A stretch of 64,000 nucleotides of DNA from Chloroflexota bacterium (GTDB lineage: Bacteria > Chloroflexota > Anaerolineae > Anaerolineales > Villigracilaceae): positions 1 through 64,000 of the forward strand of contig JACRBI010000040.1 in the NCBI GenBank assembly GCA_016234495.1, read 5' to 3'. The notes under the pieces were generated by a model that saw only the letters and a program-made list of their open reading frames with translations, did no database searches and was not told where the DNA came from. Positions 15,498 to 22,080 of this stretch are shown piece after piece (the first letter of the stretch is position 1; the number at the start of each line of letters is the position of its first letter). The position numbers and the translations under genes were made by a program.

Positions 15498-16490
15498 TTA
15501 TTCCACCATCCAGCAAGCCACCCAATGTCCGGGACGGGCTTCCTTGAATTCGGGCTCCGCTTGCGAGCACTGGGCAACAGCGATCGGGCAGCGAGTGTGG
15601 AAGCGGCAGCCCTTGGGTGGATTAAGCGGGCTAGGCACATCGCCTTTAAGGATGGTGCGGTCGCGCTTGACTTCGGGATGCGGCACAGGAATTGCGGAAA
15701 GCAATGCCTTTGTGTAGGGATGCAGAGGTTCGCGATACAGCGAATCACGCCCTGTCAACTCCACCATCTTGCCGAGGTACATGACCGCCACGCGGTCGGA
15801 GATGTGTTCGACCACACTCAAGTTATGCGCGATGAAAAGGTAAGTGAGGCCGAATTCCTTCTGCAAATCTTTGAGAATGTTCAGCACCTGAGATTGAATG
15901 GAAACGTCCAGCGCCGAGACCGGTTCATCGCAAACGATGAACTTGGGCTGCAGAGCCAGGGCGCGGGCAATGCCAATGCGCTGGCGCTGTCCGCCGGAAA
16001 ACTCATGCGGGTAACGGCGGGCGTGATATTCTTCCAAACCCACTTTCTTCAACATGTTAATGGCAACTTCCCAGCGTTCCTTGGGATGCCCGATCTTATG
16101 GATTTGCAGGCCTTCCATGACCGCTTCGCCGATCGGCATACGCGGATTTAATGAAGCGTACGGATCCTGGAAGATGATCTGCATGTCGCGGCGCAAAGCT
16201 TTGAGGGATTTGGGGCGCATCTTGATGATGTCTTCGCCATTAAAGGTAACTTCTCCAGAAGTCGGTTCGATCAAGCGCAAAATGGAGCGGCCAACGGTGG
16301 TTTTTCCGCAGCCAGACTCGCCCACCATTCCCAGAGTTTCTCCGTTCTTAACCGCAAAACTCACCTTGTCCACCGCCTGAACCCAGGCGGTAGTGCGTTG
16401 AAAAACACCGGAGCGAACCGGGAAATATTTTGTAAGCTTATTTACAACCAGCAGATCGGTCTTTTCTTGGGTTTGCATTTTTGTATTCAT
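15498..16490 (-). CDS. Peptide-type ABC importer ATPase (DppF/OppF-like)
   Basis: 330 aa from the ATG at 16490 (AAAGAG upstream). Walker [13 protein letters not shown] signature [10 protein letters not shown], Walker [14 protein letters not shown]-loop FIAHNLSVV, and the oligopeptide-importer C-terminal domain with its cysteines (GCRFHTRCP ... CSQ), known in this family to bind a 4Fe-4S cluster. An in-frame ATG at 16553 would overlap the upstream ATPase by 47 bp and lacks a ribosome site. It pairs with the ATPase at 16507-17541 to energise the importer. Confidence 0.93.
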
Positions 16491-16506
16491 AGCCGCATCA
16501 TCTCTT

Positions 16507-17541
16507 TCAGGATTTGCTTCCGCGTTTAATTGGGGCGACATGCTGGTCAGCATCTTGATAAAGCCAGCAGCGTACCTTGTGCCCTTCGGAAAGTTCTTTT
16601 AATTCAGGGCGCTTATCAGCACAAATCGACAGATTGTGCTCGACCCGCGCCATACATCGCGGAGCAAAGCGGCAGCCTGTAGGCAGGTTGACGAGGTTGG
16701 GAACCGAGCCAGGAATCACGTCCAACCGGTCGCGCACTTCGCCTAAAACAGGTATAGAACCAATCAACCCCTTGGTGTAGGGATGAAGCGGACTATCAAA
16801 AAGTGTGGCAACGCTGGATTGTTCAACAATCTCGCCAGCGTACATGACCGCCACGCGGTCTGCCATTTCAGCGATCACACCCAGGTCGTGGGTAATGAGG
16901 ATCATGGCCGAGCCAAGCTGGGTGCGCATGTCGCGCATCAGGTCGAGGATCTGGGCCTGAATGGTGACATCCAGCGCGGTGGTGGGTTCATCTGCGATGA
17001 GCAAGTCTGGCACACAAGCCAAAGCCATGGCAATCATGACGCGCTGCGCCATACCGCCGGACAATTCGTGCGGGAATGACTGCGCGCGGCTTTCAGGTTC
17101 GGGAATGCCAACGAGCTTGAGCAGTTCCACGGCACGTTTTTGACCCGCTTCCTTGCCGAAATCCTGATGGATGTTCAACACTTCCGAGATCTGGTCGCCG
17201 GCGCGAAAGACCGGATTAAGCGCAGATTGGGGCTGTTGGAAGATCATCGACACGCGATTGCCGCGCACCTTCATCATTTCTTCTTCGGTGGCTTTTACCA
17301 GGTCCTTGCCTTCGAATAAAATCTCGCCGGCTTCGATCTTGCCGGGCACGCTGATCAGGCGCATGATGGAAAGGGAAGTGACGCTTTTTCCGCAGCCGGA
17401 TTCGCCCACGATGCCCAACACCTCGCCGGAATTGACATAGAAATCCACGCCATCCACGGCATGCACAACACCGTCTTCGGTATAAAAATAAGTTTTTAGA
17501 TTGCGTACTTCAAGCAATGGTGTTTGATTATTAGTTGCCAC
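16507..17541 (-). CDS. Peptide-type ABC importer ATPase (DppD/OppD-like)
   Basis: 344 aa. Walker [10 protein letters not shown]-loop [10 protein letters not shown], signature LSGGMAQRV, Walker [14 protein letters not shown]-loop LITHDLGVI. The C-terminal oligo_HPY domain has the cysteine cluster GCRFAPRC ... CADKRPELK. It is fourth in the importer operon, 36 bp after the DppC-type permease gene, and forms the heterodimeric motor with the next gene. Confidence 0.94.
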
Positions 17542-17577: not shown

Positions 17578-18579
17578 CTATAACTTCAAGCGCGGATCAA
17601 GCGCATCGCGCAGGCCGTCGCCAATGTAATTGAAAGCAAGAGAGCAAATAAAAATGGGGAGACCCGGTACGAGCGGCAGCCAGGGTTTGTCGAACATGTA
17701 TTGTTGTGTAGCCGAGAGCATATTGCCCCAGGTCGGGATCGGGTCTTGAATACCGAAGCCAAGGAAAGCAAGGGCAGCCTCATAAATCACAAAGCCTGCC
17801 AGCCCAAGCGACGCATCCACGATGATGGGAGCCATGGCATTCGGGATCATGTGCTTGAAGATGATCCAGACATCTGTCGCGCCGAGGGAGCGGGACGCTT
17901 CCACGAAAGTCTGTTCGCGCAATGAAAGGATGGTGCCGCGCATCAACGTTGCCGAAGAAAGCCAGCCAAAGCCAGCCAAAATAATCACGATCAAAATCGC
18001 ATTGCGGGCATCTTTGGGGCCAAGCAGCATGATCTTCCCCACAAAATTTAACACAGCCTCCGGGATGGGAATCAGGTTTTCATTTCTTAATAACATCGAG
18101 GAAATGATCAACAATAATGGCAATTGTGGAATGCTCAACATAAATTCAACGAAGCGCATTAAGATCGCATCAACCCATCCGCCATAGAAACCAGATACCG
18201 CGCCTACAAGTATCCCGATCGTCTCAGAGATCAACACAGACAGCAACGCCACCGACAGGGAGATGCGGCCGGCATAGATCAGGCGTGAAAAATAGTCGCG
18301 GCCAATATTATCGGTTCCAAGGTAGTGAACGCGTCCGGTGGCCTCGTCCACGGTTCCAAACGGCACGAAGTAGTTATTAACATTCAACTCATCGACTTTA
18401 AATGACGTAATATAAGGCGCCATGATCGTAATGATAAAGATCACGATCATGACAGCCAGCGAGACCATCGCCAGCCGGTGTTTGACAAAACGCATCATCA
18501 CCACCTGGAATGGGCTGCGCTCTTCGATGGAAATGGCTTCAGCTTTAAGATTATCTATGTTTTGAGCAGATACGGTCAT
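17578..18579 (-). CDS. Peptide-type ABC importer permease (DppC/OppC-like)
   Basis: 333 aa from the ATG at 18579, which has AGGATG five bases upstream; the longer frame to 18639 would overlap the previous gene. It has an N-terminal cytoplasmic segment, a first membrane helix, the extracellular loop with YLGTDNIGRDYFSRLIYAGR typical of DppC, then five more helices. The ATPase-coupling EAA loop reads EASRSLGATDVWIIFKHMIP. It pairs with the permease at 18596-19795. Confidence 0.93.
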   Translation of the reverse strand: MTVSAQNIDNLKAEAISIEERSPFQVVMMRFVKHRLAMVSLAVMIVIFIITIMAPYITSFKVDELNVNNYFVPFGTVDEATGRVHYLGTDNIGRDYFSRLIYAGRISLSVALLSVLISETIGILVGAVSGFYGGWVDAILMRFVEFMLSIPQLPLLLIISSMLLRNENLIPIPEAVLNFVGKIMLLGPKDARNAILIVIILAGFGWLSSATLMRGTILSLREQTFVEASRSLGATDVWIIFKHMIPNAMAPIIVDASLGLAGFVIYEAALAFLGFGIQDPIPTWGNMLSATQQYMFDKPWLPLVPGLPIFICSLAFNYIGDGLRDALDPRLKL

Positions 18580-18595
18580 TGATACATCCTCAATG

Positions 18596-19795
18596 CTAGT
18601 GTAGGCGGATGCGGGGATCCGCGATCGTATAAAGAACATCGCGCAGCAGCGTGGCGATGACGGTTAATACAGACAGGATAAAGAACAGCGCCATCGCAAC
18701 CGGGTAATCATAATCACCGAGGGCAAGGATATATAAACGTCCCATGCCCGGCCAGGCAAAGATACTTTCTGTGATGATCGCGCCGCTAAACAACCCCGGT
18801 ATCGTGAATACGACAATGGTGATGAAGGGAATCAGTGCGTTGCGAAGCGCGTGTTTCAAAATCACCATCTTTTGGCCCAATCCTTTGGCGCGCGCCGTGC
18901 GGACATAATCCTGGCGCAGCACATCCAACATGCTGGCACGGATATAACGGCTCCAGCCTGCGACGTTGAGGATGGTCAATACGGCGACCGGCAGTATCAT
19001 GTGCAGGGCTCTATCTTTAAAAGAACCTGCGATCACTTCGCCGATCAGCGGAATGGTGTAATTGCGGACAGATTCCGACAAGCCGGCCGGGATATAAGCC
19101 AGCCCGGCATTCTTCGGCAAAATTGAAAACAACAAAATAAACAAAAGACCAAAAAAGAAACTGGGCATGGCTGACCCCATAAATGCAAGGGTCGTGAAAA
19201 TATAATCAAATCTGGAGTACTGCCTGACGGCGGAATAAATACCCAGAGGAATGCCAATAATCAAGGATAATAGCGTTTCAAGGCCGATCAATTGCAATGT
19301 TTTGGGGATGCGGCTTTCAATCAGGTCGCTGACCGGGCGGTCGCGCAAAAGGCGCCACGATAAGCCAAAGTCACCTAGAAGCACGCCGCGGCTCGTGCGC
19401 CGTCCAACCAGGTCTTTTAATAAGACGTCTTCCTTGCAGCCAACCGTTACAATTTCAACCACACCGCGTGAATTGGTGACTTCGGCTTCAACCGGCCTGC
19501 GGCAGCCAACCACCATTTCAGCAAAATATTCTTTTCCGCCGATCACAAGCGGGCCACGCGGCACACCGATTAACCAACGGCCAAAGCGCACCGGCAGATT
19601 TAAATCCAACTCAAAGGAAGCGCGTATGCGCGCAATATCTTCCTCGGTGATTCTAAAGCGACCTGATTGTTGGATTTGACGCAAACCAGATAATGGTCCC
19701 CCGGGGGCAAAACTCAGCAAAACATAAGAAGCCACGGCTGAAATAAAAACTACAAGAATTGATTGCAAAACTCGGCGGATTAAATATGCAGTCAC
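18596..19795 (-). CDS. Peptide-type ABC importer permease (DppB/OppB-like) with extra external loop
   Basis: 399 aa from a GTG at 19795 (GGAG five bases upstream). The first helix (AYLIRRVLQSILVVFISAVA) and the C-terminal five-helix core with coupling loop RTARAKGLGQKMVILKHALR are standard. Canonical DppB is about 310-340 aa; here about 60 residues (about 76-138) are inserted in the external loop after helix 1, with two cysteines (98, 120) that could form a disulfide. The GTG start is preferred to an upstream ATG at 19846 because only it has a ribosome site. Confidence 0.92.
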   Translation of the reverse strand: MTAYLIRRVLQSILVVFISAVASYVLLSFAPGGPLSGLRQIQQSGRFRITEEDIARIRASFELDLNLPVRFGRWLIGVPRGPLVIGGKEYFAEMVVGCRRPVEAEVTNSRGVVEIVTVGCKEDVLLKDLVGRRTSRGVLLGDFGLSWRLLRDRPVSDLIESRIPKTLQLIGLETLLSLIIGIPLGIYSAVRQYSRFDYIFTTLAFMGSAMPSFFFGLLFILLFSILPKNAGLAYIPAGLSESVRNYTIPLIGEVIAGSFKDRALHMILPVAVLTILNVAGWSRYIRASMLDVLRQDYVRTARAKGLGQKMVILKHALRNALIPFITIVVFTIPGLFSGAIITESIFAWPGMGRLYILALGDYDYPVAMALFFILSVLTVIATLLRDVLYTIADPRIRLH

Positions 19796-19847
19796 GGCAT
19801 CTCCATCATTGAAAAAACTTTCTTTATTAGGGCTTACGCAGTTCAAA

Positions 19848-19968: not shown

Positions 19969-19996
19969 TGGGGTAGGCGATTTCTCGCCTACCCCA
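19969..19996. terminator. Hairpin after the permuted solute-binding protein gene
   Basis: 12-bp perfect stem tggggtaggcga / tcgcctacccca with TTTC loop, 22 bp past the stop codon. On the minus strand it is followed by ATATC rather than T8. It probably attenuates read-through, so that the binding protein is made in excess over the permeases (inference). Confidence 0.6.
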
Positions 19997-20017: not shown

Positions 20018-21904
20018 TTAGCGGGTGAACAGCTGGATGTCGATATGCTCCCAGGTTCCGCCGGCTTCCACGAAGGTCTTGATCTTGCCTTCGGCTTCAG
20101 CAGCGGCGAGGGTCTCGGAGAGACCAGCCAGAGAGGTTGAATCGAGGATGTCAATTTCACCGCCCAAGAGCAAAGCTTCTGCGCTTTCGGGGGTGATGAT
20201 CTGGATGACGAGGTTCGGGGACTTGGCAGGAGTGCCTACCCAATTCTCATTGGCAGCGAAGACGAGCTTCTCGCCCTTGACCCATTCAACCAACTTGTAA
20301 GGACCATAGGAAAGAGGAGTCTCGGCTACGCGAGGATCGGTTGCCCAATCCTTGGCGGCGAGATCGCCCAACTGATGAGCGGGGAAGATTGCCCAAACAG
20401 GGAGGAAGTATAGCGGGTCCTGAACACCGGGTATCCAAGTCTGGGTATAGCCATTGTCGCTGAATTCAGTGCTGGCGGTCTTGTCGCAGGTGATGAAGGA
20501 GGTCGCGCCGGATTCGGGATCGCAGGAGATCTTCTTGCCGAGTTCGAGGTCGGCGCCGGTGACGGGGGTGCCGTCTTCCCACTTGAGGCCGTCGATCAAG
20601 TCAAACCTGGAAACCATTTGTTTCATGGTGATGGTTCCACCGGTGAATTCAACTTTCTCACCAGCAGCGTTCATAACGAAAACGCCAGCGGCGAGGTCAA
20701 CCACGTTACCATCAGCATCCATAACTTTGGTGCCTTCAGCAACTTCCACGTCATTGTTTGTCGTGCCGCCGTTTTCAATGGTGGGCAGGTCTTTGACAAG
20801 GGTGGCTTTGAAGTCGTAGTTCAGGTGAACTTCCTGAGCAGGGCGCACGATCTGGTAGGCAATGTTCGCCACGAAGGCATCTTCAACGAGGGTGAAGAGG
20901 GAGGCGGGTTCCTGGGTGAAGCCAATGACGATGGTATCGGAACCAGCTTTTTCCCAATCCTGAATGTTGTAGTTGTAGTATTCCTGTCCGGGCACCGGTT
21001 GGAAGCCGGAGAGGTCAGCAGCAGCCGCGAAGGTCTCGGTGCGGTTGAACAACGGGATGCTCGGGATATCCTTGGTGAATTCCTGCTGAACGATAGTGTA
21101 AGCAGCAATGCGCTCATCTTTGATGAGGGTGTTGTTGGCGAGCTTGATGTTTGTGCTGGCCAATTCGTTACACCAACCCATCGCGTTCTGACCTACCCAG
21201 CCGTTCTCGGGCAGCGGGATCTGGTCACAAGCATAGAGGGTCTGACCACCGGGATCAGCCTGACCGACCCAGGCGAAAGCGCCAAGTTCATAGTCGCGGC
21301 GGGCGATACCGGTTGTATCACCGAACCACCAGGAAGCGGGGGCATGTAAGCGGACGACACGAACGCCGCACTCAGCCATCTGAGCTTCCCAGATCGCAGC
21401 CCATGTCTGACGGAAGGCAGCGGATGTGGTGGTGAACTTGAGGGCGAGTTCATCGCCAGCAGCATTGGTGCGGAAGCTCGCGCCTTCAGCAAGTGTCCAG
21501 CCGGCTTCGTCGAGCAAGGCCGCGCCTTTTGCAGCATCGAAGGGATAAATGGTCACGTTTTCATCGCCGGCATAAGCCCAGTGGCTGGTCGGGATGAAGG
21601 TGTTCATGATCAAGTTGGCTTGTGTCTCTTCATTGACCAAAGGATAAACCGACTTGATCAAGTCAGCTTTGTTTGTGCAGTATGAAAGAGCCTGACGAAC
21701 TTTGAGATCGCCAAGGATCGGGTGGGGTGTGGTGAAGGAAGTGGGGGTGACAGGAGCCTCAGTTGGGACGGGGGCTTCAGTCGCGACAGGCTGTTCAACA
21801 GCAGGCGCTTCAGTTGCGACGGGAGCCGGGGTGCCACAAGCAGAGAGAATCATGCTGGCGACAACCAACAGACCCATAACAAAGAACAAACGGTTACGTA
21901 ACAT
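20018..21904 (-). CDS. Circularly permuted family 5 ABC solute-binding lipoprotein
   Basis: 628 aa from the ATG at 21904 (GGAGGAG upstream). Signal peptide with lipobox SAC (Cys23) and a Pro/Thr/Ala-rich spacer to residue 60. Residues 61-321 then read HPILGDLKVRQALSYCTNKA ... EFTKDIPSIPLFNRTE ... NYNIQDWEK: this is the second half of a normal SBP_bac_5 protein, including its C-terminus. Residues 322-628 begin with the canonical N-terminus (IVIGFTQEPASLFTLVEDAF), run through LKWEDGTPVTGADLELGKKI and LSYGPYKLVEWVKGEKLVF, and stop at WEHIDIQLFTR, the segment that normally precedes HPILGD. The order is thus rotated relative to the neighbour at 13317-15242. It is first in the importer operon with a strong promoter, so it is probably the main binding protein. 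Fold and function are likely kept because the two ends meet near the hinge (inference). Confidence 0.88.
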   Translation of the reverse strand: MLRNRLFFVMGLLVVASMILSACGTPAPVATEAPAVEQPVATEAPVPTEAPVTPTSFTTPHPILGDLKVRQALSYCTNKADLIKSVYPLVNEETQANLIMNTFIPTSHWAYAGDENVTIYPFDAAKGAALLDEAGWTLAEGASFRTNAAGDELALKFTTTSAAFRQTWAAIWEAQMAECGVRVVRLHAPASWWFGDTTGIARRDYELGAFAWVGQADPGGQTLYACDQIPLPENGWVGQNAMGWCNELASTNIKLANNTLIKDERIAAYTIVQQEFTKDIPSIPLFNRTETFAAAADLSGFQPVPGQEYYNYNIQDWEKAGSDTIVIGFTQEPASLFTLVEDAFVANIAYQIVRPAQEVHLNYDFKATLVKDLPTIENGGTTNNDVEVAEGTKVMDADGNVVDLAAGVFVMNAAGEKVEFTGGTITMKQMVSRFDLIDGLKWEDGTPVTGADLELGKKISCDPESGATSFITCDKTASTEFSDNGYTQTWIPGVQDPLYFLPVWAIFPAHQLGDLAAKDWATDPRVAETPLSYGPYKLVEWVKGEKLVFAANENWVGTPAKSPNLVIQIITPESAEALLLGGEIDILDSTSLAGLSETLAAAEAEGKIKTFVEAGGTWEHIDIQLFTR

Positions 21905-22052
21905 GTTTTTTTCTCCTCCAAAGAAGAAATATAGGGGTGATTTGTTTCTGAACACAAATTACACTTACGTTATAACGTTAATTTTTTGCCTGACCACCTC
22001 CTTTATAAATTAAAAAAGGCTTTACAAATTTGTTATTGTGAAAAGCAGTCGA

Positions 22053-22080
22053 ATTATACCTAATTCCTTTAGGGCGTCAA
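22053..22080 (-). promoter_or_regulatory. Promoter of the ABC importer operon
   Basis: On the minus strand: TTGACG (22080-22075), 16-bp spacer, TATAAT (22058-22053). This predicts a transcript start near 22046 and a 5' leader of about 140 nt before the binding-protein ATG. Confidence 0.7.

Follow-up and report, generated by a model that had tools for sequence, protein, structure and literature searches.

The closest described counterpart of the protein reported here comes from Treponema pallidum: TpMglB-2 (Tp0684), a cluster B binding lipoprotein that is naturally permuted, still binds glucose and changes shape upon ligand binding (PMC4990184). Its authors propose the name 'Cluster Bc' for such proteins, and discuss tethering as well (PMC4990184). 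A second point of reference is the DppABCDF importer, in which the TM1–TM2 region of DppB has a scoop motif that enters the DppA cleft (PMC12136057). Here we describe a 628-residue lipoprotein encoded on a stretch of 64,000 nucleotides from a Chloroflexota genome, referred to throughout as the window. Very probably, this protein is an inherited circular permutant within the cluster C binding lipoproteins (family 5, Opp/Dpp-type) and works for the OppBCDF importer whose genes directly follow its own. It would capture a peptide-like ligand and deliver it to OppBC, as in DppABCDF.

Like TpMglB-2, the window protein represents a natural permutation of an ABC-importer binding lipoprotein and belongs to a group of related proteins (PMC4990184). 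The two differ in fold and in the position of the cut. TpMglB-2 is described there as having the Type I/cluster B sugar-binding fold, permuted inside the N-lobe with a fourth hinge crossing added (PMC4990184), whereas the window protein belongs to cluster C (PF00496) and is predicted to be cut in the C-lobe with both crossings kept. It shares the natural permutation with the Cluster Bc proteins, but its only Pfam match at E 0.001 is PF00496, with none to MglB or cluster B. With DppA/OppA-type proteins (PF00496) it shares the homology of both halves, a lipobox and adjoining oppBCDF genes; it differs from them in its swapped halves, in its termini, which would lie in the C-lobe, and in an OppB partner with an extra periplasmic segment. 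Natural permutation is already known in cluster B, and the present case extends it to cluster C; no permuted family 5/cluster C binding protein was found in the open-licence PMC literature.

A binding lipoprotein with exchanged halves

The gene at 20018–21904 is encoded on the minus strand; the plus-strand frame at these coordinates holds several stops. Read from ATG 21904, the product begins with a lipoprotein signal peptide (21836–21904, minus strand), whose lipobox L-S-A-C places the cysteine at residue 23. A low-complexity spacer rich in T, P, A, V and E (21731–21835, minus strand) leads from the lipid anchor to the folded part, which opens at TTPHPILGDLKVRQALSYC, the motif with which ordinary family 5 binding proteins begin their second half. 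There follow the normal C-terminal half, comprising the C-lobe and return strand (half A; 20945–21730, minus strand), and the normal N-terminal half (half B; 20021–20944, minus strand). At the seam between them, residue 320/321 in ATG numbering, the normal C-terminus ...NIQDWEKA passes into the normal N-terminus GSDTIVIGFTQEP, and the protein terminates at the strand WEHIDIQLFTR (20021–20053, minus strand). L20, A22 and C23 of the lipobox region are invariant in an alignment of 17 rows (A1), comprising the window protein and L013–L028. Signal peptide, spacer and terminus all read as claimed in an earlier note on this DNA, as does the ribosome-binding site, GGAGGA, 9 bases 5' of the ATG (21914–21919, minus strand; direct reading). 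The promoter claimed alongside them is a TTGACG-16-TATAAT site (22053–22080, minus strand) that fits at 11 of 12 positions but, taken alone, carries no significance: 2.0 such sites are expected in shuffled sequence, and 1 was found.

The order of the halves was compared with that of a second family 5 binding protein, encoded at the end of the same gene cluster (P0002; 13317–15242, minus strand; PF00496, BLASTP). Numbering the window protein from an upstream GTG, 17 residues ahead of the ATG (P0001), BLASTP aligned its residues 341–636 to 47–352 of the paralogue (E 3e-35) and its residues 80–318 to 377–618 (E 6e-21); the halves are therefore in swapped order. PF00496 matches the paralogue in one stretch (profile 15–327) and the window protein in two, the best of which pairs protein 450–614 with profile 20–184. 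At 127.9 bits against a gathering score of 32.4, the window protein belongs to the family 5/cluster C profile, and by sequence it also has the lipoprotein export signal and the position beside oppBCDF expected of the family; the collinear order of N-lobe followed by C-lobe is what it lacks.

Among the fetched loci, 152 ORFs matched the half profiles and were sorted into 91 permuted, 45 standard and 16 other ORFs, the last mostly fragments and lone lobes. Exchanging the halves in silico lifted the score against a profile built from standard-order proteins in 91/91 permuted and 0/22 standard proteins, with the median best single-domain score moving from 216 to 436 bits and from 793 to 434 bits, respectively, and that of the window protein from 231.9 to 447.3; these sets had already been sorted by order with related profiles, and the swap test is a consistency check with a control rather than an independent discovery. 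Taken together, the swapped BLASTP segments, the two non-collinear PF00496 stretches and the swap test bear out the circular permutation that the earlier note had read from the sequence, as well as the standard order of the paralogue. A close relative with this gene in standard order, which the note had named as counter-evidence, was absent from the fetched close relatives.

A constant cut site and its predicted place in the fold

The cut is as clean as had been claimed. In 85/91 permuted ORFs the W of WEH lies 11 residues from the C-terminus, in 4 the distance is 12–15 residues, and the motif is absent in two, L075 (cut by a contig end) and L067 (divergent). The cut site falls between the WEHIDxxL strand and the VRQAL helix. 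Across this site the standard-order proteins L068 and L069 read WEHMDFNTLAR-TNKDSKERKA-PHPLLGD and WEHLDFNLFAR-TNKDATERKT-PHPVLGD, such that the cut falls in a 10-residue loop, and the termini of L068, ...NIAEWEKG and GADTLIIG..., correspond to the seam of the permuted proteins. A lipobox-like site is likewise present in 85/91 permuted ORFs, followed by a spacer with a median length of 44 residues. Six ORFs gave no match (L038, L061, L074, L080, L089 and L090); most of them are truncated or have a late start, and the site in L080 is close to the consensus.

Phylogenies of the separate halves group the permuted proteins. In quick trees computed without bootstrap and with no root inferred, 37 permuted and lone-lobe rows lie on one side of a branch for half A (66 rows; SH-aLRT 100), and 33 permuted rows fall together for half B (61 rows; SH-aLRT 99). 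For this set, three of the 91 permuted ORFs were set aside (L074, L075, L090), and 33 of the other 88, together with 28 of the 45 standard ORFs, were kept at 72% identity.

By sequence, half A matches residues 322–562 of the Thermus protein 2d5w and 276–491 of DppA (1dpp), and half B matches 2d5w 210–311 and 6i3g 54–231. An AF2 model of the mature protein, built from a 48-row alignment that included the halves of standard-order neighbors, reached pLDDT 80.5 and pTM 0.77; with the 17 close relatives only, the model was poor (pLDDT 51). VIA-align superposes model residues 266–561 on DppA 1–265 (Z 18.2, rmsd 2.8, 233 aligned), 261–561 on 2d5w 1–304 (Z 19.7) and 263–562 on CtaP 5isu 37–281 (Z 20.4); across DppA, OppA and AppA, half B superposes on the N-terminal halves with Z of about 18–20. 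The comparison with DppA that the earlier note had suggested is thus structural for half B, these matches spanning essentially model residues 261–561, and the fold of half A is assigned from its sequence match. Model pLDDT is below 50 at residues 1–4, 136–163, 302–306 and in the tail, 560–571, whose pairing with the C-lobe is not seen in the model. Among the matches listed, Foldseek alone covers no more than about half of the model, which is what a permutant should give.

With half B superposing on DppA 1–265 and half A matching DppA 276–491, the cut would lie at about DppA 265–276, which we take, from the lobe border of DppA, to be the beginning of the C-lobe. The permuted protein would then fold as a normal two-lobed Venus flytrap. 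Its old C- and N-termini, both in the N-lobe, would be joined almost without added residues (...NIQDWEKAGSDTIVIG...), and the chain would be opened in the C-lobe between the first strand (WEHIDIQLFTR, now the C-terminal tail) and the first helix (VRQALSYC, now the N-terminus). The N-lobe would thereby become continuous in sequence and the C-lobe discontinuous, with both hinge crossings remaining covalent. Since the new N-terminus would lie in the C-lobe, the lipid anchor is predicted to hold this lobe instead of the N-lobe. With the spacer running into the beginning of the C-lobe, the earlier proposal of an anchor attached near the hinge is a reasonable one; a spacer of the observed median length could also make the anchor position neutral.

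We infer that WEHIDIQLFTR, as the first C-lobe strand, stays in the C-lobe as a C-terminal tail. This strand should belong to the C-lobe because lone C-lobe proteins keep WEHID after loss of the N-lobe: in L063, L064 and L170 the whole N-lobe is absent, yet they run ...LPLFxR...WEHIDFNL, and L062 comprises two such lobes in tandem. An alternative idea, that the permutation cuts one hinge crossing, was dropped because these proteins retain the strand.

The isolated C-lobe proteins are found at L062 5248–7554 (doubled), L063 4652–6247, L064 5762–7195 and L170 6431–7675. In each, the lobe ends in WEHIDxNL; a region that matches no Pfam profile and then a (Y/F/H)LPxxxR tail come after it. L062–L064 have a signal-like start, the L170 open frame shows none, and a full-length match to L063 occurs in 1/400 phylum genomes. 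They appear to have arisen from permuted proteins that lost the N-lobe. Two further family 5 proteins are joined to other domains. In the genome from which the window comes, one very long ORF (L003; G000:C48:22989–26804) combines a Bmp/PnrA-like binding domain (PF02608) with repeat-like regions and a lone family 5 C-lobe whose order is standard. At L065 (7604–10477), a standard family 5 protein is joined in a 958-residue frame to a phosphonate-binding-like domain (PF12974), and this frame adjoins a very divergent permuted protein.

The importer operon and its OppB loop

Behind the permuted gene, the window encodes the permeases oppB (18596–19846; likely start GTG 19795; PF00528) and oppC (17578–18639) and the ATPases oppD (16507–17541) and oppF (15498–16553), all on the minus strand. 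A 12-pair palindromic stem-loop (19969–19996, minus strand, listed on the plus strand) occupies the interval between the binding-protein gene and oppB. It is possibly an attenuator or mRNA stabiliser, perhaps setting the ratio of binding protein to permease expression; terminator-like sites in this region number 2 against 3.4 expected in shuffles. The earlier assignment of the gene to the head of its own importer operon extends to its relatives, as an OppB lies directly behind the permuted gene, or behind what a contig end has left of that gene, in 45 loci in addition to the window. OppC, OppD and OppF usually come after OppB; for L096 and L097 the fetched flank contains no more than oppBC, and the gene neighborhoods of L075 and L082 are cut.

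Window OppB contains an extra periplasmic segment with two cysteines between TM1 and the GDFG motif (19397–19561, minus strand); by our own reading, it would lie after the scoop-bearing part and before GDFG. The stretch from the TM1 GGP to DFG, measured in all but one of 68 rows (L072, which has no start motif), spans 95–111 residues with exactly two cysteines in 46/46 OppB proteins beside permuted proteins. In 11 OppB proteins beside standard-order proteins it spans 42–192 residues. Of the measured rows, L158 (104) and L166 (77) have values that look too high, owing to a preceding motif in the open frame. Next to a standard-order protein, the OppB of L162 has a 101-residue stretch with two cysteines in another sequence context. 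The unusual external loop mentioned in the earlier note is constant throughout the permuted operons, but loop length alone is not tied to the permutation, given the long inserts beside standard-order proteins. Uniqueness of the long OppB loop to permuted operons was accordingly rejected as regards length (L161–L163) and kept as regards sequence. The OppB proteins of L161 (188 residues) and L163 (192), both beside standard-order proteins, have periplasmic stretches of other sequence, and this loop seems to be a hot spot for insertions.

One alternative reading is that anchoring by the C-lobe and an enlarged two-cysteine OppB loop co-evolved as a docking adaptation, with the binding protein handled unlike that of Dpp/Opp. 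A single branch sets the OppB proteins of permuted operons apart (46 rows; SH-aLRT 99, with a program warning that long branches meet). Their co-occurrence with the permuted protein is near-perfect: of the 396 class genomes, 53 have an OppB match at E 3e-111 or better, all of them among the 56 with a whole or partial permuted protein, the other three being G050, G286 and G329. Moreover, the loop lies in the same TM1–TM2 region that in DppB contains the scoop (PMC12136057). However, with both traits on one branch these associations count as one event, and long inserts are also present beside standard-order proteins (101 residues with two cysteines in L162, 188 in L161, 192 in L163). Furthermore, a standard-order binding protein lies beside the same genes in 14/17 named relatives, after oppF in 13 and before the permuted gene in L029 (none is seen in L015, L022 and L028, the first two of which have short flanks). 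We therefore regard a docking adaptation as tentative and, on balance, unlikely.

Origin of the permutation

Duplication, fusion and trimming, close to the route proposed in the earlier note, fits as the origin of the permuted protein. No tandem-duplication intermediate was found among the 152 ORFs matching the half profiles, and the doubling in L062 concerns the C-lobe, not the protein as a whole. The closest unpermuted proteins found by half A are L068 (G135) and L069 (G169), each a single chain in standard order. L068 heads the same BCDF order, and its OppB loop is short, at 62 residues with no cysteine; L069 has no OppB directly behind it.

The trees hint at separate nearest neighbors for the two halves, which raises the alternative that two neighboring paralogues fused, half A being derived from an L068-like protein and half B from the larger standard clade. 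Half A groups with L068/L069/L071 (SH-aLRT 92.1) and half B with the larger standard clade (SH-aLRT 91.7). The stretch from ENG to WxDG is longer in half B, at 61–118 residues (25/32 rows measured; 44–69 in the larger clade, 8/20 measured), than in L068, at 28, with L069 and three outgroup rows not measured. AU tests nevertheless do not reject one common history for both halves (p 0.24, 0.25 and 0.44); these addressed six questions, of which one was unfinished and two needed no test, in a comparison from which four long-branch rows (L005, L006, L031, L065) were dropped. Mean identities, from 32, 20, 2 and 3 rows of four groups, are 44% to L068/L069 and 30% to the larger clade for half A, and 32.5% and 27.8% for half B, which is thus slightly more identical to L068/L069 than to the clade proposed as its source. 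A fusion of paralogues is, in our estimation, rather improbable as the source of the permutant.

Distribution of the permuted order

A scan of genome contigs for close relatives of the window protein returned 19 loci, all from records titled Chloroflexi, Anaerolineae or Anaerolineales. The order is permuted in 17 of them (L013–L029) and standard in L030 and L031. Within the window's class, 59/396 genomes match at E 1e-50. One match spans most of the 571-residue query in permuted order in 49 genomes, while seven hold pieces cut by contig ends or frames (G020, G026, G031, G073, G208, G240 and G353); G135 and G169 have the standard order, and G174 a doubled C-lobe. At this threshold 340/396 class genomes lack the permuted protein, whole or partial, as do 8 of the 11 listed genomes of the window's genus, the other 3 possessing it. 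In a phylum sample of 400 genomes, which overlaps the class sample, 43 match, 41 as one collinear piece and two partially (G073, G605); 14 of the 43 are common to both samples and 29 come from two other families, f71 and f107. Several single-contig genomes contain the gene, and 72,556 plasmid records gave no match to the protein at E 1e-15. The conservation in Anaerolineae that the earlier note had asked about is thus evident and reaches beyond it to two other families. The permuted arrangement is widespread but patchy within one phylum, and tied to one importer lineage.

Two loci depart from the intact gene. The one-contig genome G605 carries a shortened permuted gene (G605:C1:2870596–2871717; query 1–375, frame of 480 residues), a possible pseudogene. 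At L078 (4550–6749), the permuted gene occurs as two overlapping frames, an A half and a B half, reflecting either a frameshift or a real two-piece protein.

No OppB lies directly behind the permuted gene in L065, L066, L067, L080, L086 and L172; oppBC are missing beside all of these, L066 and L067 having oppDF only. Such copies could point to a protein that binds its ligand as a sensor or scavenger and does not feed OppBCDF, which we judge highly improbable for the permuted protein, given the OppB directly behind it in the window and 45 other loci. That the order is an assembly artefact or a decayed gene of the window's MAG, as its 57-contig assembly, the split frames of L078 and the shortened match in G605 might suggest, is refuted for the family, and practically discounted for the window, by 91 distinct permuted open frames from independent assemblies and single-contig genomes, in keeping with the earlier view that this is no random rearrangement.

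Implications

It is conceivable, though doubtful, that several families of one phylum share a class of Opp importer whose binding protein is anchored by the C-lobe and docks on an OppB enlarged by a loop that a disulfide may close. On this reading the permuted topology would also have allowed the C-lobe to separate, and the free-standing proteins with one lobe or a doubled lobe (L062, L063, L064, L170) would be its products. Collinear profiles hide such permutations, as Pfam and NCBIfam give only partial matches for the permuted protein. Permuted and standard-order binding proteins stand in the same gene cluster, in the window as in most of its named relatives, and may share one permease. With natural circular permutants one can ask how far folding, hinge motion and partner docking depend on a protein's termini and on the order of its chain. 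Because both forms share a gene cluster and the permuted form occurs in single-contig genomes, this question can be tested here with natural proteins.
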